Origin: Cinnamomum chago
Taxonomy: Eukaryota; Streptophyta; Magnoliopsida; Laurales; Lauraceae
Reading direction: 5' to 3'
Assembly (NCBI GenBank): GCA_038049695.1
Contig: CP142457.1
Location: forward strand, 29,849,501 to 29,913,500
DNA length: 64,000 nucleotides
Shown: piece after piece, positions 3,181 through 35,100 of the stretch
Numbering within the stretch: position 1 is the first letter of the stretch
Layout of the letters: every line of letters starts with the position of its first letter
Translations under genes and position numbers: made by a program
The notes under the pieces: generated by a model
Told to the model about the DNA's origin: nothing
The model's input: the letters and a program-made list of their open reading frames with translations, nothing else
The model's database searches: none

Positions 3181-4098
3181 ATCCGGCGCCTGTCTTGTCT
3201 GTCAGCACGTTCTGCAATGTAGCCGTAACTTTGTGAAAGTACAATCATGGTCTAGTACTCATCTTTGTGGACGACCGAGCTGAAGGTGATACTGAGGCCA
3301 GATCCAGATGCATCCTAGCACTATTGCTGATGTGCCTTATACCGAGACTAAGATGAGCCCAGTCGGTACTCTTACCGAGGCTGGTTCAAGTTTGGCGCAA
3401 GCTGGCACTGTTTGCCGAGTTGAGATGAGATGTCTAGTTGGTATCGTTACCGATGTAGATGAATCTTGGCACTCTGGCCGAACTTTGATACCAAGATTGG
3501 GATGAATTGAGCTGGTACTGCTACCAAGACTAACGTAATCCTACTCTTAGGAAAGCACCCCACAAAGAGACTGTACAAGTGTTTATGTAAATAGGACAAT
3601 ACCTTTTTGATAAGCCAACGTCCTCCTCTAGATAAACTTTTTGAGATCTAATCTACTGGTTTATCTAGTAGTTAGTATAAATTAGAGAGATTTTAGGATG
3701 TGAGATAGATATTAGTTGGTCTAAGTAAAGTTTAGAATTTAATGGAGCTAAGACGAAGATAATTAATGATTGTTTTTGAAAAAAGTGAAATGGATGGCTT
3801 TTAGTTTTGAGATAAAACTGTTTATAGATATGATGTATGAGTTATGATTTATTTATAGGGATTAGATGTGCACATTTTATCGTGAAGCCCCGAAAGTGGA
3901 TTCCTTGTGTCCCTCTATGGCGAAGAGGCATATATAATAAATAAAATGTTAATGATGTAATGTGTACCATATATATAATATTTAATAATAATTGATGTAC
4001 CATGTACCCTATATATAATATTTGATAATACAGCCCCGATTAGTTGCAAGATTACGGGGGGCAGGCCCACCAAGGACCACAACTAATGTGGTACTTAT

Positions 4099-4142
4099 GA
4101 GAAATTCTATTCGCACCCACTGGAAGTGATGAATACACCCAC
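4099..4142 (+). repeat. Left terminal inverted repeat of the MULE
   Basis: The terminus starts gagaaattctattcgcaccc and ends with tgaatacacccac. The two conserved blocks are separated by a variable 10-bp spacer. The 9 bp just outside (4090-4098) pair with 10813-10821 as the target duplication. Confidence 0.85.
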
Positions 4143-4498
4143 AACTTAAATAATTTTTAATTACTAAAATGCCCTCGGGTGAAAGGACGAAATTGCCCTT
4201 ACCAGCAACATCTGTCTTCCTCCTTTGGTTCACCAGCAGCAGTCTCCAGTCACTTCTTCTTCTACTTCTACTTCTTCTTCTTCTTCTTCTTCTTTTTCTT
4301 CTCCTCTTCCTATCCCTTTATCCATTCCCTTCTCACTGCACCTCTACACTCCTTCTTCCTCATTGATTTTCATCTCCTTCATCATCATTTCTTCTAACTC
4401 TTTTTAATATATCATCAAGTCTCCTCCATTTATTGAACGAACTTGGAAGTACAATTATCCCTACACCACATTGTGTATTTAAAGTAGGCATTTGCAAT

Positions 4499-6168
4499 AT
4501 GGACAAGCAGTTGACGATCTACGAAAATGAGGTATATACATTTTGACTTCATTTCGTTCGTTTTTTTTTTGTTTTCTCGCGTCCTGCACGGCATTCTATA
4601 GACCGTGCAAAATTATTTTACACGGCGTATATATACCGTGCAAAATTATTCTGCACGGCATATATATACCGTGCAAAATTATTCTGAACTGCCTATATAT
4701 ACCGTGCAATATAATTTTGCACCGCCTATATAAACCGTGCAGAATAATTTTGCACCGCCTATATAAACCATGCAAAATTAATAAATGAGTGTGCAGTGCT
4801 AATCTAAAAATTTGTGATTTGCAGGAGGTTGAATCAACCGGTGCCAGTGAGTGCCTTTTGGATTTTACAAATGTCTTCACCACTGACATGATATTCAGAA
4901 GTCGAGAGGGCCTAATCCAATGGACAAGGGATGTTGGAAAGAAACATGGCTTGGTAATTGTAATCAAGACTTCGGATGCTGGTGGAGATGGACGGAAGCC
5001 GAGAGTCGTTTTTTCTTGTGAGAGAAGTGGTAGTTACAGGAGTCCATCGAAGGTATTCGAGAAGAGAAATCCTAAGAAGACAACGGGAACGAAGAAGTGT
5101 AGTTGCCCTTTTGCTTTGAAGGGTCGAAAGTTGGCAACTGACGACGATTGGATGTTAACAGTGGTTTGTGGGGTGCACAATCATCCAAACGCACAGCATC
5201 TAGAGGGGCACTCGTTTGCTGGGAGGCTTTCTGTGGAAGAAATCAACGTTTTGATTGATATGTCTAATAGTTTGGTGAAACCGAGGAACATCCTTCGAAC
5301 ATTGCAGGAAAGGGATGTGCACAACACCACTACAATTAAGAGTATCTACAATGCTCGCCAGAAGTTTAGGGTGACAGAGATGGCCGGTCGATCACAAATA
5401 CAGCAACTCATGAGGCATTTGGAAGAGAACAACTACATTGAGTATCACACTAGCAACGATGCTACAGATGTTATCATGAACCTATTCTGGGCACATCCAT
5501 CATCTATTCAGTTATTACGTGCATTTCCAGAAGTTTTGATAATGGATTCCACATATAAGACTAATAGATATCGACTTCCCTTGCTTGAAATTGTTAATGT
5601 CACATCTACTCAATTGACGTTCTCCGTTGCTTTTGTGTACCTTGAATCAGAGAGGGAGGCCAATTATAGATGGGCTTTGGAGAGGCTTAAGGAATTAATG
5701 GATGGATGCATCACGACCCGTGTAATTGTCACAGACAAAGAGTTAGCGCTGATGAATGCAATAAATGTTATTTTTTCGAATGCAACAAACTTATTATGCA
5801 GGTGGCATATTTCTAGGAACATGTTGGCAAATTGTAAGAAGTGTTTTGAGACCAACGACAGATGGGTTACATTTATCTCTTGTTGGAACACGTTGGTAGT
5901 CTCTCCAACTGAAAGCGACTACACACAAATGCTAAGTGCTTTGGAACGGAATTACTGCGGGTATCCATATGCTGTTGATTATGTGAAGACCTCATGGTTG
6001 AATAAGCATAAGGAGCAATTTGTGGCTGCATGGACGGATCGGCATATGCACTTTGGGAACGTCACTACTAACAGAGCTGAGAGTGCACGTGTAAAATTAA
6101 AGAGACACTTAGGCACATCGAGCTGTAGCTTTGATTCGTCCTGGCAGGTTATATATACCAATGAGTAG
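4499..6168 (+). CDS. FAR1-type MULE transposase, C-terminus deleted
   Basis: A two-exon model fits best: exon 1 at 4499-4531 (MDKQLTIYENE), a GT-AG intron 4532-4824, and exon 2 at 4825-6168, giving 458 aa. The N-terminal half has a WRKY-GCM1/FAR1-type zinc-binding region (SCERSG, KKCSCPF, GVHNHP). The centre is a MULE transposase domain with candidate catalytic acids D252 (IMDSTYKTN), D315 (VTDKELAL) and E430 (TNRAES), and the conserved LCRWHI between the last two. Such proteins cut and join transposon ends in the nucleus. The frame ends in SSWQVIYTNE and a stop, where relatives continue for roughly 100 residues and then a SWIM zinc finger. The next homologous stretch resumes immediately in another frame (see the OTU entry), so an internal deletion with a frameshift is the likely cause. 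The first 33-bp palindrome array lies in its intron. Confidence 0.9.
4586..4780. repeat. Array of 33-bp palindromic units, left copy
   Basis: About six head-to-tail units of 33 bp. Each has the form GCACGG, 10 AT-rich bases, CCGTGC, then 11 bases such as aaaattattct. Both the GCACGG-CCGTGC pair and the next CCGTGC-GCACGG pair can form 6-bp stems, so the whole array can fold as a chain of hairpins. It lies within intron 1 of the transposase gene and starts 487 bp from the left terminus of the element. Confidence 0.92.
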
Positions 6169-7156
6169 TGTCCACCACTATTGGCGGAAGCTTAATTTAG
6201 AAGCCACTATGGTGAACGAAGCCCTTGAGTTGACCATAACTTCAGAGTTCGAGTTGATCACTAAGAGATTTCAAAGTAGTGATCAGAAGGGTAAAATACA
6301 AATTTTAAGAAAACTTAGAGAACTCGGTTGTCCTTCATCTACTTCTCTTATTGAACCAGACGTAAAATTGAATACCCGCGGTCGGTCATCATCGAAAAGA
6401 AAGAAGTTGGATAGATCTACGCGTTGGGAACCATCTAATTTTGAATACGCACTGTCGATAAAAGATAGCGTTCCAGGTAGATTAAGCAATACAGTTGCAA
6501 CGAAGAATAAGGAGAAAATGACTGTCCGTCGCACTCGGTCATGTACGTTTCTGCATTTGCTTCCTCAGTCTTTGGGCCCCTATATCCACACTATTAAGGA
6601 TGTTGCAGCTGATGGTAACTGTGGATTCAAAGCGATAGCTGGTCTCCTAGGACTGGGCGAGGATAAATGGATGCAGGTTAGAATGGATTTGAGCAATGAA
6701 TTGCAGAGGTATCAAAATTATTATGCACTGGTTTATGGAGGAGAGGACAGGGTTGGGGAGCTGTATTACGCATTGTGTTACTTTGAAAGCAATCCTTCAT
6801 TTGATCGATGGATGACAATGCCGGACATGGGTCACTTAATATCTTCATATTATAACGTTGTATTGGTCCTTCTTTCACTGCAGCAGTGCCTTACTTTCCT
6901 GCCTTTGAGATCATCCCCGATTCCATCAAGTTCTCACAAAGTGCTCGCGGTTGGTTTCATCAATGGAAACCATTTTGTTCAGGTCTTCATGAAACCCGAA
7001 TCACCCATCCCTCCCATTGCTACAAATTGGCATAGACACCACCATCCTAAAGCAGACGGATGGCAGATCCCATATGCAAAGAGCATCGAGCAATTCAGAG
7101 AATTGATTGGAAACAGTGTCGCAACGCAGGAGTCGGTCAATCTTGACAGCGATTGA
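6131..7156 (+). CDS. OTU-domain cysteine protease module of the MULE
   Basis: This 341-codon frame overlaps the end of the transposase frame by 38 nt, in a different phase. Its first residues (MSSVHHYWRKLNLE, then a basic RGRSSSKRKK stretch) match the linker that follows the SWIM finger in long plant FAR1/MULE-OTU proteins. The first ATG is therefore probably not a native start, and the frame is the C-terminal part of what was one polyprotein. The OTU domain occupies about residues 150-310. The catalytic cysteine is C164 in DVAADGNCGF and the histidine is H281 in NGNHFVQVF; both are present. OTU proteases cleave ubiquitin or related chains. Why some MULEs carry one is unknown to me; protection of the transposase from degradation is a guess. 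No premature stop is seen within the domain. Confidence 0.88.
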   Translation: MIRPGRLYIPMSSVHHYWRKLNLEATMVNEALELTITSEFELITKRFQSSDQKGKIQILRKLRELGCPSSTSLIEPDVKLNTRGRSSSKRKKLDRSTRWEPSNFEYALSIKDSVPGRLSNTVATKNKEKMTVRRTRSCTFLHLLPQSLGPYIHTIKDVAADGNCGFKAIAGLLGLGEDKWMQVRMDLSNELQRYQNYYALVYGGEDRVGELYYALCYFESNPSFDRWMTMPDMGHLISSYYNVVLVLLSLQQCLTFLPLRSSPIPSSSHKVLAVGFINGNHFVQVFMKPESPIPPIATNWHRHHHPKADGWQIPYAKSIEQFRELIGNSVATQESVNLDSD

Positions 7157-7320
7157 TTATGTGTACTCTCCATTTGATGTAAACAAACATATTACCTATT
7201 TTGTATTGGATGGCCAATGAATTCGATCAGGTCTTTATGTGTTTATGTTGTGTATTAATTCATTAATAATATTCCAAAGAAGGTATTACTTCATTAACAA
7301 CTGCTCGGTTAAACATGGCT

Positions 7321-7455
7321 GGGCAAATTTGTTCTGCACGGCGAATATGTTCCGTTGAAATGGATAATGCACGGCATAAAGTTGTCGTGCATAAACTATT
7401 TGCACATTAATAAAGTGCCGTGCACACTCTATATGCTCGGAACATGGTGGCCGTG
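7321..7455. repeat. Array of 33-bp palindromic units, central copy
   Basis: Four diverged units of the same GCACGG..CCGTGC design at 33-bp spacing lie between the convergent 3' ends of the OTU and PMD genes. The left edge (actgctcggtt) matches the inner edge of the right array at 10121, showing that the two arrays share a longer module. The rest of 7157-7735 is AT-rich, with no other gene. Confidence 0.85.
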
Positions 7456-7735
7456 TAGTGTATTTTAGCAAATATTCGGACAGAAACACATAACATACAT
7501 ATCCATATAAGGCCCATACAAGTTCAAACATAAAAAAGTGTATCCTCAAAACATCCATAAAAAAATGGATACATCCAAAAAATCAGGTGATCCATCCATA
7601 CATATCCAAAAAATTCCTTAAATCCCCAAAATGGATAAACCCATCCATACATCCTCTAAAGTGTATGCTTTAATTTCCCATCCATACAGACTTAACAAAA
7701 GTATAAGACAAAAAAAAAAAAAAACCCTCATGCCA

Positions 7736-9985
7736 TCATGGATCTGTACGTCGTCGGTACGTCACCGGCAAGCCATCCAGGATCTCGAGGGTGGTTTGGA
7801 GTGCCCGGTAATAGAAATCTGCAGGCTGTTCCGTTTGTGCAATCGTAGCGCGGAGATGGTCCCTCGCCCGAGTGATCTGTAAGAAACAATTAACTGTGTC
7901 AATACCTAAGATAAGTATAACAAATGGATGCATAATGTTTCGATAAAGTACAAACACTCACCACTCTTGGAGTCGGGTCAGCTACACCCTCATTAGGGTG
8001 ATAGTGGGAATGACGTTGGGGGTTCTGTACTCGAGGGTGTGAAATCCTAGAAAACCACTCGAGGTAGTCGGGTGAGCACTCCCATGCATGTTGCGCTCGA
8101 TGGCCGCGGTGCGCTAAGGACAATAGATGATCCTCCCAAGTAACCCAGTACTGGTCTAGAAATCTGTAAGAGACCCTGTATTGTCCAGCAGTAGATCCCC
8201 GAGACGCACGAATGGGGGCGAGCGGTGCGGGTGGGATGGTCTGTACATATCCAAACTGTCGTAGAACCCTATGTGGATGGTAGGGTTCAATGACATCTAA
8301 CGCTCTCAAACAACCACAGAAGAAAGATATCGGATGGAATGGATGATGAGCCCTGACACCAGTATATGGATCCCACTGGACCTGTGGCAAGTAAATGAAA
8401 GAACTCATTATTATAATAAAAATTTGTCCATTGAAAAAAAGTGCAACATTAAACCAAGGACCCCATATGGGTGCTCACCTGACTCGGATGTAGGTCATCC
8501 AGCCTCTCACGCAACAGTTTTATGTTCTCCTTCGCAATCCCAGAATCCTGTCCAGCATTCCAGCGGCTCGCTTGAGGCATACCAGCGGTATATCCCCACT
8601 GCGCAGGAGGACGGGTAAATGGGAAGTGCTCGTACACCCAAGACTGCAAAAGATACCAATTATTAATTATACAATTTAAATGATCAATTACGATGGAACA
8701 TGTATATGTATATGTATTACCGTGAGCAGTGTCAGATATCCAGCAATCTGTCGCACGTCTGCCCTCGTGGCAGTCCCCAATTGGCGATAAAGATATGCAA
8801 GTGCGGCAGCCCCCCATGCATAACGACGGACCCGTAGCAAGTCCATCAGTAAATGTAGGTAGGCAATGGGGACTCGAGTGGCCGACTTATCGGAGAAGAG
8901 TGTGCAGCCTAACAAATACAGAAGATAGCCTCTAGCTGCACACTCTACCAGCTCAACAGACGACGCAGGACTCACCTCGCCGCACACCCGTTTGATCCAG
9001 GCCATCCTCACTACCCCACCACGAGCTACTCTCAACTCAGCTGACGCAGATGCCCTATCCACGCCCAGTCCACACTCAAGTAAATCTACTTGATCAGTAA
9101 ATCCCATACTAGTCGATGCGTGGACAGGCAGTCCCGTTACTGGGATGCCGAGGAGAGTACCCACATCATCTAAGGTGATCGTCATCTCACCAAATGACAT
9201 GTGGAATGTATTTGTCTCGGGCTGCCACCTCTCTACAAAGCTGGATACCAGAGGGCTTGAGATATATCGGTAAGAAAAACGCTTCAAATCTGCCAATCCA
9301 GACTCTTCTATAATAGCATAAAACCGAGGAACATGGATATCGGCCCCATCCCCAGGCAAAGGTATGTACCAATCCTTCAGCCCTCGCCAATGATTGATAC
9401 ACTTGAGTGCCTCACGTTCCTGCACATTACAAGTATAAATCTTCATTAATATCTGTTATTATAGACTTCAACACAACTTATTTGAAAAACGATTAATTAA
9501 AACATTAAAAAAGGCAATTGTACCTCCCCATCCCATATGGACAAGGCTACGTGTGTCCTAAAACTCATAAGGACAGATAGGTTGGCCGGACCACCGGGGA
9601 TAGGACCCTCCCTTGCCGCCGCAGCAGGAGGACTGGATGGTTGTCCCTCCTCGAAATGGGAATCATCCTCCCCTGGTGCCGCTGCAGGGAGACTGGACAG
9701 CTGTGCCTCCTCCTCAGAGGAATCATCCTCTGAAGAACTGTCACCATGCTCTTCTCCTGGTGCCGATGCACGGGGACGGGACGGCTGTGCCTCCTCCTCT
9801 GAGGAATCATCCTCTGAAGAACTGTCAACATGCTCCTCAACCTGCTCCCGGAGTGGATCCTGTTGCAGTTTTCGTCTTCGTTCAGACACCGATCTTCGTC
9901 TTCGTTGACGGCTGGCGGTCGAAGAACTCACATGCAAACCTCGGGAACGCGATCTTGAGACACCGATCTTCGTCCGAACTCTCAT
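7736..9985 (-). CDS. Plant mobile domain (PMD) protein, five exons
   Basis: Exons on the minus strand: 9985-9524, 9419-8721, 8643-8479, 8381-7962, 7876-7736. All introns are GT-AG and all are phase 0; the joined frame is 628 aa without a stop. Residues 1-130 are low complexity: a basic, SR-like start, then two copies of the acidic DSSSEDDSSEEEAQ motif and a third diverged one with Pro/Ala spacers. From about residue 135 the protein is a plant mobile domain: ALSIWDGE across the first splice, then NHWRGLKDWYIPL, FGEMTITLDDVGTLLGIPV, later WVYEHFP and QWDPYTG. Host relatives (MAIN, MAIL1 in Arabidopsis) act in the nucleus in silencing and genome stability; transposon-borne relatives are of unknown function. 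An in-frame TAG lies just upstream of the chosen ATG. It is convergent with the transposase and OTU genes of the same element. Its open state contrasts with the broken transposase. Confidence 0.92.
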
Positions 9986-10062
9986 GGCTCGCTAGAAGAA
10001 CTGGCCCGTCCCCCTGTCATCTGTGAGCTTCCACCAATACGGCGAGCTGGTCTTCTCGGCAT
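9982..10062 (-). CDS. Short upstream frame overlapping the PMD start (ATGA)
   Basis: A 26-codon frame (MPRRPARRIGGSS...) ends at a TGA that overlaps the PMD start codon as ATGA. It is rich in Arg and Ser like the PMD N-terminus, so it could be the former N-terminus cut off by a one-base frameshift, or an upstream ORF that tunes translation. The sequence does not decide between these. Confidence 0.4.
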   Translation of the reverse strand: MPRRPARRIGGSSQMTGGRASSSSEP

Positions 10063-10140
10063 TTCTTCCAATCTGTTAAAAAAGAAAACCAATAAAAGAG
10101 GATATCATATTTTTTTTGTACTGCTCGGTTTAAATAGACA

Positions 10141-10324
10141 GTGCAAAATTATTCTGCACGGCTAAATGGAACCGTGCCAGTTCTGTTTGCACAACTCAAT
10201 GTAATCGTGCAACCTCTGTTTGCACGGTAATATGAAATCGTGCAAATTATATGTGCACAGCTTATATAGGCCGTGCATATATATTCTGCACGGTTTACAA
10301 TTCCGTGCAGAAAATCCCTGCACG
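10141..10324. repeat. Array of 33-bp palindromic units, right copy
   Basis: Five to six units of the same 33-bp design as the left array lie upstream of the PMD gene on its strand. The array ends 488 bp from the right terminus of the element, almost exactly mirroring the left array. It is bracketed by actgctcggttta on the inside and ctgccgagcag on the outside, themselves an imperfect inverted pair. Confidence 0.9.
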
Positions 10325-10768
10325 TCTCTGGACTGCCGAGCAGATTGCGAATAGATGTTTTCAAAAATGTAAAACTGGAGTTCGAAACTATTTCTTTTCA
10401 CACCAGATTCTTCCCTATTTGTTGCAAAGGTCTCACAACTATACTCTCTAATGCATAAATTACAACCTAAACAAATTTGTGAAAATGATAAACCTATGAA
10501 GAAGAAGAAGGGCTCTCACCTGTTTCACTGTCCTGATGAAGAAGACGAAGAAGACGAAGAACAGCTCACCAACTGTCCACGAGGGTGTGAGAGCTGTGAA
10601 GTGGGACGACTCCGAATGGCCACAAATTTGAAAAATGCAAACGAGAGAATGTGTTCAGGAAATGGAACAGGGAACGAACGGTGAGCTTGGATGGGCAGTC
10701 TGGGGATTATGGTGGGTGTGTTCAGCAAAATCAAGCCAAAATTAGAATTAGTGTGGTGAGGTCAGCAA

Positions 10769-10812
10769 GTAGGTGTATTCAGGAGAATAGGTGGGTGCAT
10801 ATAGAATTCCCC
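10769..10812 (-). repeat. Right terminal inverted repeat of the MULE
   Basis: Read on the minus strand it starts ggggaattctatatgcaccc and ends with tgaatacacctac, the same length (44 bp) and layout as the left end. The differences in the first 21 positions are two A/G, one T/A and one C/T. Confidence 0.85.
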
Positions 10813-11148
10813 CGTGCTTATAATCTAGAAAGTCTGAATAAGTATTGGAAAGTCCACAAGGACGACAACAAGGCGGTGCTCATAATCTAGTGGCTGATTT
10901 GTGGCTGAGCAAGTATTGGAAAGTCTAGTCAGTCAGCAAGCCCAACCTGACTAATGTGACTAAAGTGAGTGAGGTCAGGCCTGACGTATGGTATGTATTC
11001 TCATTTTCCACAAACAGAATCGCATTGTGAAGTGCGGCGTCCAAACGCACTCATCAGTTTTCTTTTTCCCCATAGAAACATAATCTCAGTTCCAACGTCG
11101 ACGAATCTAGTTTCACCCCGGAAAAGATCGACAGAAGAAAATAGAAAA
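10813..11148 (+). promoter_or_regulatory. Truncated promoter and 5' UTR of the Moco sulfurase gene
   Basis: Only 336 bp separate the right end of the MULE from the start codon. The proximal part contains an imperfect duplication: gtgcttataatctag at 10814 and gtgctcataatctag at 10876, each followed by aagtattggaaagtc (10840 and 10911). No clear TATA box is visible. An in-frame ATG at 10969 would add 60 residues, but they match nothing known in the family, so I treat this part as 5' UTR. Confidence 0.55.
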
Positions 11149-14100
11149 ATGGAGGAAGGAAAAGAGGAGTTTCTCAAGGAATTCGGAGAGGATTACGGAT
11201 ATCCAAACGCTCCCAAGAACATCGATGAAATCCGAGCGTCCGAGTTCAAGCGATTGGACGGTCAGATTCTTTCCATCTCATATTCGACTCAGTTTCTTTC
11301 ATGAAATCTCTCTATCAAATATTGAATCCTTTTGTTTTCTCAACTTGTTTTTTTTTGGGAATTTCTAGGGCTCGTGTACTTGGATCATGCAGGAGCTACT
11401 TTGTACTCGGAGTTGCAAATGGAAGAAGTCTATAAAGATTTCACTACTAATGTGTACGGAAATCCACGTATCCAAACAAACAAAAAAACATTCACAGATA
11501 AAATGTGCTTTTTAATGTTTTGATTATGTGGGTTGCATTTGTTTTAGTTTGGTTTGCTTTGAATTAATGAGAATTATCCAAAAATTCAAAACTTTTGATT
11601 GTATACAGTTCTTTTTTCTTTAATCTTTTTTGTTCTGGGTAGAAATTATTTAAATTATATGAGTTGCATTTGTTATACTACTTCAATCGCTGCTTTTCAA
11701 CTCAAGGAACTCATCTAGACTTCCATTTTATGGGCTTAGTTAGCTCAATCAACATTGGGTTGTTTGTTGTGATGTGGAAAGAGCACAATCAAAGAGAAAG
11801 CGGGGAAGATTCAAAGGAAAGCACAAGGGAAAACGCAGTACTTCTTAGCTATGAAGCAATTACCAAAGAGAGATTTAAAGCTGTTGTACCTATTTCTTAC
11901 TAAAAGCAATTACCAAAGACAGATTTAAATCAATGAGGGATTGCAGAAGGGAAGAAGTTCTTATACATTTTTCCTATAAGATGCCAAGTTACAATTTCTT
12001 ACATTCTCCTCCTTGGCAAGGAGCCCATCTATTCTCCTTGCTTATCAACGCTTAGCCTGGACAATGTATAGCCTTGTTTAATTCTTGCTGAACTTAGTGA
12101 ATTACGATTTATTTCTCCTTATGAAACTTCTTTAACTAAACTTTTGAATTCTAATCTTTGCATAACTCTTTTCAATTGTACAAATGATACGCTACCCAAC
12201 TGCGACTGAAATGAGGAATGGGGCAAGCAGAAGAACATCTTCCATTATGGATCTGATATCAGCCTGTTGTAGAATAGAGAGTGAATATAGAGAAACAATC
12301 TGGATTAAAACACAATAAATGAGATTTATATTTTATTTGGTTCATCACTAAGAGCTATGCGTGCCCACAAGTGAAGATCACCGCAATTTTCCAATATATC
12401 TAGAAGGAACATGATATGATATGCCAAAAAGAATGCGTATGTGAAGATCACTGTGATTTTTAAATATATCAAGAAGGAACATGATACTAGATGTCAAAAA
12501 AGGAACAAGAGATTACAATATCATGTGACTTGCATTTGCCCACACAAAAGTCTCTAAGACAGTATCTAGCACACAGCGACACCACACCCCCCCCCCCCCC
12601 AGGCACCCCCCCGGCCACACACACAAACAAAAAAAAAAAAAACTTGAATGAACGAACTATCCCCATTACAGAAAAGAAACCCATGACATGCTCATCAATT
12701 CCCTCATGCATGCAAGAAATACGTGGACAAAAACTTTAATAAGTCGATGAAACCTTCTTAGTTGCGCAAGTCTTTTTTTTTTTTAAGGAAGCTGGACAGT
12801 TAACCCAATCCTTGTTCTTGTATTTCCATTTCTTTCTTTCTTCTTCTTTTTTAATAGCTTATATTTCTTTTTTTTCCCTAAAAAAAAAAAAACCAAAGAG
12901 TGGTAAAAACAGGCAAGAAGTCCTTATGGGATTCTTCCGACAATAGGCCAAGCCACTATTTCCAATAATAGAATGTATTTGATTAGGTTACTGACATTTT
13001 ATTAAATGAATCTATAAAAGGGGAGGCTGTTCATTTCATAAAATCAGACCACTCCATTCTTTCCATTTTCATCTTTTTTCTGTTTTTGGGGTCAAGACAT
13101 AGATACTCCAGTCAAGTTTTTGTGAGTATACCTTAGTTTATGCCTCACCTTATAGGCATGCCAACCACTGGTGTAGGGGATGACCAAAAATCTCCCTCTT
13201 ATCAATCTTAATCCAGTTAATTTTTGGTTTTAGAGCTCCGAATCTAATAGTTTTATAAGTGCAGCTTGGACTGTAATTCAATCCATTAGTGGATCAAGGT
13301 CAGATTAGGTTCAAATTGGGATTATTGTCAGTTCAAGGGGATTGGTGTGCGGTTCAAAGTGAACCTTTTCTATTTTTTTTTTTTCATTGTAGTTATGCTG
13401 TGTGAATAAAATCTTGCTAACTTTTGGTTTTAATATGGTTATTGTGATAGGTAGAAAGTATCTTGGTTTCTTTATTTACTTATAACTTCTTCAAGCATGT
13501 TTTTTGGGCTGGTATGGATTTAATTAGTTTTCTTACGTCGGTTTAATTGATTTACATGGAGTTATTCAGCTAATGTGTAATTTTTAGTTTTTATACTAGT
13601 TTTATTTCAGCACTGTGTTTATGCGCATTAGCTGATATGTTATTGGTTTTGTTTTATCAGTATTTCTTAATTTAATGCAATTTAGATAGCCAAAGTGATT
13701 CGAGCTCTGCCACATCTGATGTAATAAGGGCAGTGCGTCAACAGGTATTTCTATTAAGGGATAAGAGTTACAGCTACTTGGGTATTTCATCTTTTACAAG
13801 GAGCACCATGTGTCGGTTTATCTGAATTTCTAACTAATGGCCCCCAATGTTGATATTCCAAACAGATAAGATCTCCAAATCTTTGTGATATTAGCACCAA
13901 TCTTCACATTCTTTATTTATTTATTTTTTTGGTAAAATTGATGAAAGAATTTTATAACTGAAAGAATACTTTTAGAGCAGGAAGTTGCAAAGTGACTACA
14001 AAATGTAATTGGGAGGCACAAAGTAGAAAAATTACTAGAGAGTTTTGTGGGTGCTTGTGCCTGAAAGTTCACCTCCTTATTATTATTATTTTTTTTAATG

Positions 14101-29100: not shown

Positions 29101-32100
29101 AATTTCTCTCCTTCTATGTATAGGATATAATTGATTTTTTCCATTCTTTTGTTATTCTGATTTGTATCTAATTTGTAATCTTTACTTAATTAGAGCCTTG
29201 ATTAAGGCATCATATCAATATAAATATGATAGTCGATGCTCTGTGTTGGCACGACCTTCTCTCCACTCTTCTTCTTCTCATTCTTCTTCCTCCTTCATAT
29301 CTTCTAACATGGTATCAGAGCCATAACATCTTGGAGGCCTCATTATTCTGACATCTACGCTACTTGGAAGAAACACAGATCAAGGATCTGTGCTTTGGGA
29401 AAGCAAGTCGTGGCTGTTCCCTCATCTGATCAATAGTGGCCCACCTACGATCATCTCGCAATCCACAAGCTTCACTCCAGCCTTGGTCGTCCATCTCTCC
29501 TAGTCTTTTTGGAGATTTTTTCAGTATTTTTCAGAGATCAGAGGTAGGCCTTTTGATCTGTCTTGTGTTTATCAAACTTTTTGAAATAGTTTTCATCTCA
29601 ACCGCATAAAATCCTGGATTCTGAATGAATCTTGATGAGACCTGTGCTGCTGGAAAGGAAAATTGATACCGGTCTCTAGCCTTTAATCTGATTCTCAATC
29701 AGATCAATTTGTGGGCCCCACGTAGGGATCCTGCATCCAAATTTCAGGACGTCTGGGCTGTTTTATTGACAAAACAGGCACTTTTATGTGCTGTTTGCTG
29801 TTGGATGCTTCATCAGCCGCTAGTTACTACTGATTTCTGATCTGAGGGCTGTTTTCTTCTTTAAAACTGCCACCTTTATGTGCTGGTTACTGTTTGGATG
29901 CTTCATCAACTACTAGTTACTGCTGATTTCTGATCTGAGGGCTGCTTTGTCTTCTTTAAAACTGCTGACTTGCTGATTTACTGTTGCTACTATTGCTTTT
30001 TGATCAGGGAAAAATATGATGTTATCCCCGTTAAGTTTAATGGGCAAAATTATATGGCCTGGTCCTTCCATCTGAAGAACTTCATAGAAGGATAGGGGCT
30101 ATTTGGTTATCTGGATGGAACGGTTACAAAACCTCCCACTCCAAGCACCACGGACTCCAAAGCCATAGCCACCTGGTCCAAGGAAAATGCCAAGGTGATT
30201 ACTTGGATTCTGAACTCCATTGATCCCTCCCTTGTCGTAGCTCTTCAAGCATATAATTCAGCAGCAGATATGTGGGCTCACCTCAAGAAGGTCTACCATC
30301 AAACCAACAAAGCCTGAAAATTTCACTTAGATAGTGAAATTGCCAAATTTACTCAAGGGGATCGATCTGTGCAGGAATACTTTAATGGTTTCCTCACCTT
30401 ATGGACCGAACGGGATTCCATGTTGATTCAGACAGTCTCTCCTGGCTTTCTCTCCGAGGCTCTTAAACTCCAAGAGGAAACTCACATTAGCCAGTTCCTT
30501 ATGAATCTCCGACCAGAATTTGAATCAGTTCGGTCTGCCCTCATGAACCGAGAACTGTCGGCTAATCTTGATACCTGCTTTCAAGAAGTACTTCGCGAAG
30601 AACTTCGTCTCACCTCCCAACGGGCTATTCTTGAAGAACCGAAGGCCTTCCTTGCACCCATTCCGACTGACTCTGCTCTTCTAACAACCCCCAATCCAAA
30701 GCCCACTCAATACTTTGAATGCAAAGGCTTTGGTCATATTGCCAAGAATTGCCGCAAGAAGTTGGTTTGCCGTTACTGCAAGAGGTCTGGTCATCTTATT
30801 GATGACTGCCACAGCCTCCGGTGAAGGAATGAGACGCAGCCTAAAAAGCCTCCCTCCCATCTGCCAAGACAAAATCTTCCTTCTGCATTCCAGTTTCAAG
30901 TACCATCATCCGATGCAGCAAGCACTTCATCTGGGGTTGTTTCCATGACTCCTGCTCAGATTCAAGAACTGATCCAGAGCACGGTTACCTCTGCATATGC
31001 GTCAATGGGCTTCTCTGGCGGTCGGTATCACACTCATTCTCATATAGCATCTCCTGCTTTTCATTCCTCTGCTTCTCTTTCTTCTCCTATTACCTCTTCC
31101 ACATGGTTTTTAGATTCAGGAGCCTCCAATCACATGACATCTGTAGCTCATAACTTTATAGATTCCCACCGTTACCTTGGAAAAGAGAAAATAACCACTG
31201 CTAATGGGGATCAACTACTCATTTTGGGAGTTGGTACCATTACTTTATCTTGTGTTTCTGGCTAGTCCATCACCCTTCCCAATGTTTACTTTGTTCCCAG
31301 ATTATCAACCAATCTACTTTCTGTAGGACAACTTATAGATGATGGCTATCTTGTTCACTTTTCTTCTTCTGGTTGTGTTATATAGGGGCGGCAAACTGGG
31401 AATGTGATCGCGACGGGGAGTAAACATGGGCGCCTGTTCTTGCTGGACATTGGACATCATTCTTTCCTTGCTTCTTCTTCTAATTTCAATACATTGTGGA
31501 CTGTTTGGCATAAACGTCTTGGTCATTTGAATAATGCGCATTTGCTTTCGTTGTTTAAATTTGGTTGTTTGGATTCTACTATTGATAACAAAATGATGTC
31601 TTCTTTATCTCAATCAAAGTGTGAAGCTTGTTGCCTAAGTAAAAGTCATATTTTGCCTTTTCCTATTCATCATGCTCGTGCTTTGGCATCATTTGACATT
31701 ATTCATTCAGATGTTTGGGGCATTGCTCCTACCTTGAGTAGGACAGGATTTAAATACTATGTGACTTTTATTGATGACCATTCTCGTCATACTTGGATTT
31801 ACTTTATGCGCATGAAATCTGAAGTCTTCTCTATCTTTCAAAAATTTTATAACATGGTCCACACCCAATTTAAGAAAGAAATCAAAATTCTTAGATCAGA
31901 TTCCGGTGGAGAGTACATGTCTCATGAAATCTCTACCTTCCTTTCTGATAAAGGAATTCTTCACCAAAAATCTCCTCAGCAAAATGGGATTGCGGAAAGA
32001 AAGAACCATATTCTTGAAACTGTTCGTACTCTGTTGATTGCATCCTTAGTCCCTCCCAAATTTTGGTGTGATGCTGCACAGACTGCTGTGTATCTTATCA

Positions 32101-35100
32101 ACCGTCTTCCTAGTACTGTTCTAGGAAAGACTACTCCTTATGAAGTTCTCTTTGGTCAAACCCCTTCATACTCTCACTTACGTGTTTTTGGTTGCTTGTG
32201 TTTTGTTCATCTTCCTCCGACTAAGCGCACAAAGTTATCTCCACAGGTTGCTAAATGCATCTTTTTGGGTTACAGTAATGAACATAAAGGGTTTTTGTGT
32301 TATGATCAATTGGAAAAACGCATGCGCATCTCTCGTAATGTAATTTTCTTGGAACATATTCCCTTCTTTTCTTTACATTTGGATAGTCATCCTATTGTTG
32401 TATCCTATCTGCCACAATTCTCGGAGTCTGAGTCTCCATCACCTTTTCCCAAAGTCTATGTCCGGCGGAACAAAGTCCCTCCTCTGGCGACTCCTTCTCC
32501 TGATTCTCTCCCAGCGCCGCCTACTGCATCTTCAGGTAATGACACTCCTTCTGATAGCACCATTTCTTTACGACGCTCTAGTCGTCCTTCTGTTGCCCCT
32601 AACCGCTATGGTTTTCCTGCTCTTCTTACTTCTTTAGATAGTACTCCTATGCCCACCTCATATTCACAGGCCTCAAAGATTGCTTACTGGCAGGATGCTA
32701 TGACCGAGGAATTAGTGTCTCTTGAAGCAAACCGAACATGGGAATTGGTACCGGCCCCAGATGGAGCCTCTGTGATTAGCAGCAAATGGATATACTCCGT
32801 CAAAGTCCACTTTGATGGGAGCCTTGATCGTTACAAAGCCAGATTGGTTGCACAGGGATATAAGCAGGAATATGGCATCGACTATAAGGAAACATTTGCA
32901 CCAGTGGCGAAAATGACCACCGTTCGTACTCTTCTTTGTGTCGCGGCAGCCCGCAATTGGCCTCTATGGCAAATGGACGTCAAAAATGCTTTTCTACATG
33001 GGGACTTGCGCGAGATTGTTTATTTAAAACCTCCATCGGGATATGCTTGTCCTCCAAAGCATGTGTGCAAATTGAGGAAATTTCTTTATGGGCTTAAACA
33101 AGCTCCCCGGGCTTGGTTTGATAAGTTCCGGGTAGCAATCCTTCAAGTCGGATTTCGTCAGAGTCACTCTGATAGTTCCCTCTTCCTAAGATGGACATCA
33201 AAGGGCTACACATTCCTCTTGGTCTATGTTGATGATATGATTATTAGTGGAAATGATACTGCCAGTATTATAGATCTCAAACACGACCTTACTCGCCACT
33301 TCAGAATGAAGGATCTTGATCCTCTTACCTATTTTCTGGGGCTTGAGTTTGTGCGTAACAAATCCGGCATTAGGGTCCTTTAGCGCAAATATGCGCAAGA
33401 TTTGATCACGTTAGCCAGGCTTGATGATGCTCACACTTTCGATACGCCTCTGGAATTGAACAGCAAACTCAGTTCCAATGATGGCACTCCCCTGGATGAT
33501 CCATCTGTTTTCCGGCAGATAGTTGGTAGTTTGCTCTACTTAACTATGACTCGGCCGGATATTTCTCATGCAGTTCACACAGTAAGTCAGTTTGTTAGCA
33601 ATCCCCACAAACCGCACCTTGCTTTACTCATCCTCCGCTATGTTAAAGGAACTCTTCATCATGGTCTCTTTTTCCCTTCTGATACTTCTCTCCAATTATC
33701 AGCTTATGCGGATGCTGACTGGGCTGGTTGTCCGGACTCTCGGAGGTCTACCACTGGCTGGTGTATGTTTCTTGGAAAATCTCTGATTTCATGGAAGTGA
33801 AAGAAGCAAACCATTGTCTTAAAGTCTTCTGTTGAGGCAGAATATCGGGCGATGTCCTCCGCCAGTGCTGAAATTATCTGGCTCTGCCGCCTTCTGTGTG
33901 AATTGGGTATTCTTGTTGGTAGTTCCACACCTCTCCATGGGGACAATACCAGTGCTACCAGAATTGCCAACAACCCGGTCTTCCATGAAAGAACAACGCA
34001 CATCGAGATTGACTGTCACTTCATCCGTCAACATGTTACCGAGAAGATAACTTTGCCTCATGTATCTTCTTTTAACCAGTTGGCGGATATCTTCACCAAA
34101 GCACTTCCTAAACAGCATCATCATGATCTAACTTGCAAATTGATGTTTTCAAACTTACCACATCAATTTGAGGGGGAGTGTAGAGGATAATAGGCCCAGC
34201 AGGCCCAGCCCATGTGCCAAGCCCACTCATGGGATATACACAAATCTGTACATGATTAGATTTAGTCCCTAATTTCTCTCCTTCTATGTATAGGATATAA
34301 TTGATTCTTTCCATTCTTTTGTTATTCCGATTTGTATCTAATTTGTAATCTTTACTTAATTAGAGCCTTGATTAAGGCATCATATCAATATAAATATGAT
34401 AGTCGATTCTCTGTGTTGGCACGACCTTCTCTCCACTCTTCTTCTTCTCATTCTTCTTCCTCCATATCTTCTAACAGGGTCCACTCAAACAAATCCATTA
34501 TATACATGGGATGTGCAAGTAGATTTGTAAGAGGGGTAGATCAGGTTGTTTTTCAAAGCTGTCCTTGTGGCTTTTCTCAATTGAGGAAGGGTATATAACA
34601 TAGATTATAGTCTGCTCCAAGCTTTTTCTTTCTTCTTTTCTTGTTCTCTTCTTTCTCCAAACTTCTCTTCTTTTCTCTTCTCTTCTAATAGACTAGGCTT
34701 TTTTTTCTCTTCTCTTTCTTTTTTTGGGGGAAACAAATGAATATAAGGGAGAGAGAGATGTCCACGAAAATGGACCCAACACTTGTTCTCAAAGAGGTAT
34801 TCACCTTGTGACTTGCACATGGTTTTGGAATGTGCGAAAGTTTCCTTGGTGCAAAACCACCCCACCACAGCGCCAAACCTCCAGTTTTTTGATGCCATAA
34901 AACTTCCTTTTTGATGCTATAAAATTTCCATAAGCCTTAAATTCCTAAACAGTCCCTAAGCTTGGGCCTATCACTATAGTGATCCCCACATGGACCCCAT
35001 CCCACTCTTATTATTAATTTCATCACTTAACTCTCATCACTTAACTTGGTTCTCCTTATCAATGACATTAAATTATTCTCATGATTTAATTATATGTACA

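Follow-up and report, generated by a model that had tools for sequence, protein, structure and literature searches.

What use could a transposable element make of a plant mobile domain (PMD) protein and an OTU cysteine-protease domain carried beside its transposase? The question is raised by a 64-kb stretch of the Cinnamomum chago genome (contig CP142457.1, positions 29,849,501–29,913,500; hereafter the window). We found that window positions 4099–10812 are a defective copy of a cut-and-paste Mutator-like element (MULE) family, with two convergent genes and three non-coding arrays of the heptamer CCGTGCA. Our preferred reading, to which we assign a probability of roughly 55%, is that the PMD protein of this family would read the arrays and counter silencing, and that the OTU domain would remove a tag near the transposase.

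The first 302 bases of the left end were used to search the 1.06-Gb genome, and 40 of 144 candidates were scored; at least 40 places match, the window included, a count that is thus a lower bound. We fetched the best-scoring 20 of the 39 other left-end matches. In 17 of them the right end is present as well, and the interval between the ends has transposase, OTU and PMD in the order seen in the window. Most of the 17 are co-linear and span about 6.9–7.1 kb from end to end (up to about 9.2 kb with inserts), and one, L020, is shorter at 5.7 kb, its PMD partly deleted. Of the other three, L010 contains a nested duplication, L017 has a large insertion, and the L027 match ends early. Coverage of the transposase–OTU region is complete, when rounded, in 20/20 copies, and PMD is covered to 98% or more in 16 of 17 and to 70% in L020. 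With indels ignored, at least one in-frame stop occurs in transposase–OTU in 10 of 20 copies and in PMD in 12 of the 16 copies with a full PMD. The sequence-only reading had suggested an element family with all three modules between matching ends, and these same-genome copies bear it out; PMD lies outside the matching ends in none of the 17 copies, and among seven diverged loci one (L032) has PMD and a right end only. A genome search with the PMD core exon gave at least 150 matches, scored among 3239 candidates and ranging in identity from 59% to 100%.

The element ends are set at 4099 and 10812 because copies with perfect 9-bp target duplications place them there. The sequence AATTCTATNNGCACCCAC occurs exactly at both ends and at no other site in the window with up to three mismatches; two matches at that tolerance were also reached in 13 of 100 shuffles. 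By eye, about 70% of the first 44 bases agree between the left and right ends. When the end regions were self-aligned automatically, a TTC repeat was selected instead of the terminal repeats, and the copies were preferred as evidence. The 6.7-kb unit bounded by terminal inverted repeats is confirmed in this way, and the 9-bp target duplication described with it holds for the family, being perfect in 10/17 copies, and less well for the window, whose own duplication has decayed (GGTACTTAT and CGTGCTTAT, 7/9). The copies thus show the 8–11 bp duplications beside inverted ends that characterize MULEs. Imperfect duplications flank L028 (8/9) and L024 and L026 (7/8), and none was found at the expected place in L011, L015, L018 and L022 (4/17). 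In L019 and L023 the right end is of a common diverged form (about 78% over its final 120 bases) that looks as if exchanged between subfamilies. L010 has a second stretch of the element that starts about 4.5 kb in from the left end, inside the first, as a nested or tandem copy.

Gene 1 encodes the transposase, its short first exon splicing to a long second exon at a joint set by eye. A MULE-type transposase domain is present (PF10551, E 4.8e-23 in a plus-strand frame). The proposed FAR1 type, which would place the element with the FAR1/Jittery-type plant MULEs (group 36), stands less firmly: the AFT match at the transposase (E 4.6e-7) is above the Pfam cut-off, and the PF03101 (FAR1) match (E 7.7e-5, 23.8 bits) is below the Pfam curated cut-off of 28.1. 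Compared with its relatives P0123 and P0124, the window protein lacks the SWIM-finger stretch and is frame-shifted there. The missing stretch amounts to about 87 residues by length (876 versus 789) and is covered by all 20 fetched copies. The window copy is defective because about 260 bp including the SWIM finger are missing and the frame is broken.

On the sequence evidence, the predicted OTU domain is the C-terminal domain of the transposase polypeptide and not a third gene. Among the 99 proteins found with the C-terminal (OTU) query, 80 also match the transposase part, and 6 of the 20 fetched copies have a single stop-to-stop frame of 873–876 residues with transposase, SWIM and the OTU His motif. 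DGNCGF is also present in five of these six, the Cys motif being altered in the remaining one, L013; L010 has DGNYGF at that position. The three kinds of protein described earlier are therefore all present as modules, yet there are two genes, not three, since relatives and the open-frame copies have OTU and transposase in one polypeptide. The OTU stretch has no Pfam family match at E up to 10. Its structure model (pLDDT 88) matches the OTU-like fold of OTU cysteine proteases: six structures in the PDB match at E ≤0.001 (best 1.3e-4, TM-score to target 0.58), and the 50 listed matches are OTU proteases or a complex containing one. Both catalytic motifs are retained in the window copy, in agreement with the earlier assignment. 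Of the 99 OTU relatives, 98 reach the Cys position and 91 have the residue; for the His the figures are 97 and 89, with gaps counted as misses. Conserved columns were drawn separately, from 29 hand-picked rows of the 99. Five annotated plant proteins join OTU or MULE to AP2, FHA, MYB, SET or NLP/RWP-RK (P0121, P0129, P0150, P0161 and P0165). They may be gene-model fusions from near-gene insertions, or captures.

Gene 2 lies on the minus strand, convergent with the transposase. Its five exons, joined by eye at GT/AG joints, encode a 628-residue protein, and PF10536 (PMD) matches in three minus-strand frames (E 8.6e-43, 2.9e-10 and 7.5e-6), the best at 147.3 bits against a cut-off of 34.9. The convergent five-exon PMD gene of the sequence-only reading is thus upheld. 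Upstream, the start frame is shifted relative to the Cinnamomum protein P0001, which begins MPRRPSRRIGG. Conserved columns were taken from alignments of hand-picked rows (24 or 25 PMD proteins). In a structure search, the PMD model shares its fold with the DNA-bound region of VANC21, and the Foldseek matches after this first one have E 0.56 and worse. The modeled fold points to a VANC-like DNA-binding role, which is more specific than the chromatin-related factor of the sequence-only reading; the ubiquitin-editing factor suggested with it would be a domain of the transposase and no separate protein.

The element also contains candidate target sites. CCGTGCA is its most enriched 7-mer, with 16 sites inside and one in the remaining 57 kb of the window (binomial 3e-15, uncorrected for the number of 7-mers), and 15 of the 16 fall in three non-coding clusters. 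Across 18 elements (the window and 17 copies) there are 13–22 sites per element and none in the examined flanks, so that concentration in the elements is judged from the window and the flanks of 17 copies. The terminal repeats themselves have no site. Neighboring sites are most commonly 33 bases apart in the same orientation, or 16–17 in opposite orientation, giving a 33-bp unit. As with VANC target motifs, a short motif is thus arrayed in non-coding parts of its own element, in an orientation unlike that for VANC21. The DOWN motif CATGCAGTTT of the MORC1 promoter, which marks MAIN/MAIL1-dependent genes (PMC9899485), has C-R-TGCA in common with the heptamer; we treat the resemblance of CGTGCA to its CATGCA as a lead only.

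The seven further loci (L029–L035) are more diverged, and their identities refer to the PMD core exon and their duplications were judged by eye. L029 (81%) has transposase, SWIM, OTU and a convergent PMD. L030 and L031 (both 66%) are bounded by related ends, the former with a 9/9 duplication, transposase and PMD and no OTU, the latter with an 8/9 duplication and keeping the transposase start, OTU tail and PMD. L033 (64%) has both ends, an 8/9 duplication, transposase, part of SWIM, a stop-free OTU and a convergent PMD. L032 (82%) has PMD and the right end, and in L034 (60%) and L035 (59%) OTU pieces adjoin a convergent PMD. OTU is at least partly present in five of the seven, PMD is convergent with transposase or OTU in six, and all seven have stops or gaps somewhere.

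Arrays at places matching the window occur in L030 and L031. Comparing phase-folded consensuses (14 core and 19 spacer bases) with the window's two outer arrays, we found that the 14 core bases agree in 8/8 comparisons and the spacer at 5–8 of 19; the totals exceed all 300 shuffles in four of the eight comparisons and not in the other four. The window left and L030 left arrays are identical at 21 of 33 positions, and the chance that all 14 core bases lie among the 21 is about 1.4e-4 by our own arithmetic, with the core taken from the window alone. Both arrays persist in L033, and L034 and L035 have a weaker right array. CCATGCA is frequent in L033 (15 in the locus versus 5 in the background used, a poor one), and its arrays may be decaying by deamination, CCGTGCA becoming CCATGCA by CpG loss.

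The coding modules bear a mark of selection. Pooled pairwise ratios of nonsynonymous to synonymous substitution rates (dN/dS) among 21 copies are 0.55 for the transposase core, 0.54 for SWIM plus linker and 0.42 for OTU; PMD exons 2–5 give 0.58 (20 copies) and PMD exon 1 gives 0.65 (18 copies). Neutral simulations with the base-change pattern of the non-coding parts (60 runs each, one extreme dropped per end; star-like with 12 lineages, a simplification) covered three regions and gave 0.75–1.15 for the transposase core, 0.66–1.21 for OTU and 0.77–1.13 for PMD exons 2–5. The observed values are below these ranges in all three regions, so the transposase, OTU and PMD appear to have been maintained by selection before the copies decayed.

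Together, a VANC-like fold and the element's own motif arrays suggest the same anti-silencing logic as in VANDAL elements. Gene 1 would yield one polypeptide with a FAR1-type zinc finger, MULE core, SWIM finger and C-terminal OTU domain, and gene 2 would yield the PMD protein. By analogy, we infer that the latter binds CCGTGCA; it would do so at pairs of sites in the intron, intergenic and 5′ regions of the element, and once bound it would lift or block the silencing of family members, in the way that VANC proteins act on VANDAL elements. Where the transposase acts, the OTU domain may strip off ubiquitin or a similar tag, possible substrates including the transposase and nearby chromatin.

Several observations weigh against this reading. 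The VANC sequence signature was looked for in the PMD protein and DUF1985 reached 15.7 bits against a cut-off of 35.1, and a PDB sequence search with the PMD profile gave no match. VANC21 sites are in one orientation and those of the element alternate. In hosts, the PMD proteins MAIN and MAIL1 act in the opposite direction, promoting silencing (PMC5418596). One CCGTGCA site lies inside PMD exon 1, so not all sites are non-coding, and most other copies carry an extra site in the SWIM region. Site counts in L029–L035 vary (13, 20, 13, 2, 13, 6 and 6), and in L033–L035 CCGTGCA is outside the top six 7-mers, against a background that held parts of other copies. OTU is absent from two of the seven diverged loci. 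Finally, the motif could be a site of the transposase or of a host factor, and the transposase is 73–83% identical in L029, L030 and L033, better conserved there than PMD.

That last point favors an explanation which we nonetheless consider unlikely: the arrays would be internal sites at which the FAR1 or SWIM finger of the transposase assembles a transposition complex, PMD having a different role. Transposases of other plant DNA transposons bind subterminal repeated sites, and L029, L030 and L033 keep the motif. However, one array is in the middle of the element, no site is within the terminal repeats, and the PMD fold is that of a protein crystallized with its DNA target. Less probable still, the arrays would act as promoters or enhancers of both genes by attracting a host transcription factor, with PMD and OTU acting elsewhere. 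Two arrays near the 5′ ends of the two genes would suit this, and genes that depend on MAIN/MAIL1 have a comparable short promoter motif, DOWN (PMC9899485), but the third array sits between two gene 3′ ends and, in our judgement, a simple enhancer would not usually show so fixed a 16/17-bp alternation. Passive capture of host sequences useless to the element, a process in which MULEs often acquire host gene pieces (PMC5418596), is already contradicted by the dN/dS below neutral for both PMD and OTU, by the same order being kept in families with PMD core exons 64–66% identical, and by the catalytic residues retained in most plant OTU relatives.

Parts of this arrangement are known. Table 1 of Dupeyron et al. 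2019 (PMC6446971) lists PMD in the plant MUDR, MDR and MUDRAVI2 MULE groups, which, like the present element, combine a MULE transposase with an internal PMD gene (mostly antisense in group 50) and 9-bp duplications. Unlike it, they are listed there without OTU and, except for an oomycete subgroup of group 50, without FAR1, whereas groups 35 and 36, the plant groups with FAR1, have no PMD entry. The Table 1 section mentions no motif arrays (PMC6446971). VANC proteins bind short arrayed motifs in non-coding parts of their own VANDAL and remove methylation (Hosaka et al. 2017, PMC5735166). The present element resembles VANDAL in being a MULE with a transposase and a second protein, the VANC21 fold appearing in the PMD model, and in its short motifs arrayed in tandem within introns and between genes (Sasaki et al. 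2023, PMC10398659; PMC5735166). It differs, as known here from sequence and model, in a PMD sequence not detectably VANC and in the presence of OTU; CCGTGCA also differs from the VANDAL motifs YAGTATTAY and AGTTGTMC, and its sites alternate in orientation.

Capture of PMD by MULEs, with a possible anti-silencing use, was suggested by Ikeda et al. 2017 (PMC5418596). PMD is likewise carried by MULEs in the fusions of that paper and in P0229–P0231 (Vaccinium, soybean), where it is fused to MuDR-type DNA-binding and transposase domains; an OTU match was looked for in P0229–P0231 and none was found. Here, by contrast, PMD has a gene of its own, convergent with the one for a FAR1-type transposase that bears OTU. 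In Rhododendron P0215 an OTU tail is joined to a PMD, and P0224, adjacent to it judging by locus tags, contains a PMD 47% like that of the window. P0215 is weak as a case of OTU–PMD linkage in other plants, since its fused PMD is of another kind (27–45% in pieces versus the window PMD). Three contigs (Diospyros, Camellia and Rhododendron) seem, by eye, common to the OTU matches and the PMD matches (120 of 325 listed).

MULEs bearing ULP1 exist, and like them the present element is a MULE with a cysteine protease possibly acting on ubiquitin-like tags, distinguished from them by the fusion of OTU to a plant FAR1-type transposase. The same likeness and difference apply to Hydra MuDR-6_HM, a table entry listed with 'Ovarian Tumour Gene' (PMC6446971). 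In our searches of open-licence PMC papers we found neither an OTU fused to a FAR1-type transposase with PMD in one unit nor the PMD–VANC21 fold link and CCGTGCA arrays. Part of these findings may already be noted by Babu et al. 2006, reportedly the first description of PMD, or by any paper behind 9lnj.

A 2021 review describes the plant mobile domain as a domain of unknown function (PMC8616336). A clear fold match to VANC21 on DNA and a candidate motif in the same element make PMD function directly testable. If our preferred reading is true, sequence-specific anti-silencing would reach beyond Arabidopsis VANDALs to further plant elements with PMD, and the transposase itself would have gained a ubiquitin-protease-like domain. 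More tentatively, and somewhat doubtfully, PMD and VANC might form one superfamily of proteins that bind DNA sequence-specifically, in which MULE PMDs would be anti-silencing readers of arrays in their own element, host MAIN/MAIL1 (with the DOWN motif in the genes that depend on them) domesticated and sign-reversed members, and OTU an editor of ubiquitin at PMD-marked copies.

Table 1. Features of the element and its target site, in window positions.
Feature	Positions	Strand	Basis
Left target site duplication GGTACTTAT	4090–4098		7/9 match to the right one
Left terminal inverted repeat	4099–4142	+	AATTCTATNNGCACCCAC match and copies (20 fetched copies chosen by left end)
Transposase exon 1 (MDKQLTIYENE)	4499–4531	+	Splice set by eye
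Left motif array, transposase intron 1; CCGTGCA/TGCACGG heptamers, 33-bp period	4585–4780
Transposase exon 2: FAR1-type zinc finger and MULE catalytic core	4825–6142	+	Pfam, splice by eye, relatives
Deletion site, about 260 bp with SWIM zinc finger, and frame break	6143–6159	+	Relatives and copies
Transposase C-terminal part: linker and predicted OTU domain; Cys in DGNCGF, His in GNHFVQ	6150–7156	+	Relatives, model
Middle motif array, between the 3′ ends of both genes	7335–7424
PMD exon 5	7736–7876	-	GT/AG joints by eye
PMD exon 4	7962–8381	-	Pfam, joints by eye
PMD exon 3	8479–8643	-	Pfam, joints by eye
PMD exon 2 (domain core)	8721–9419	-	Pfam, joints by eye, genome search
PMD exon 1, acidic N-terminus	9524–9985	-	Joints by eye
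Right motif array, upstream of the PMD gene	10121–10330
Right terminal inverted repeat	10769–10812	-	AATTCTATNNGCACCCAC match and copies
Right target site duplication CGTGCTTAT	10813–10821		Pairs with the left one

A host gene start lies at 11100–11530, about 340 bases past the right end of the element. Its first exons, which we take to resemble molybdenum cofactor sulfurase, gave no Pfam match in the one frame tested, and the element would sit in the promoter region of that gene. Farther along the window, positions 30318–30824 and 31386–33383 contain what is left of a Ty1-copia-like retrotransposon, with zinc knuckle, integrase and RVT_2 matches.

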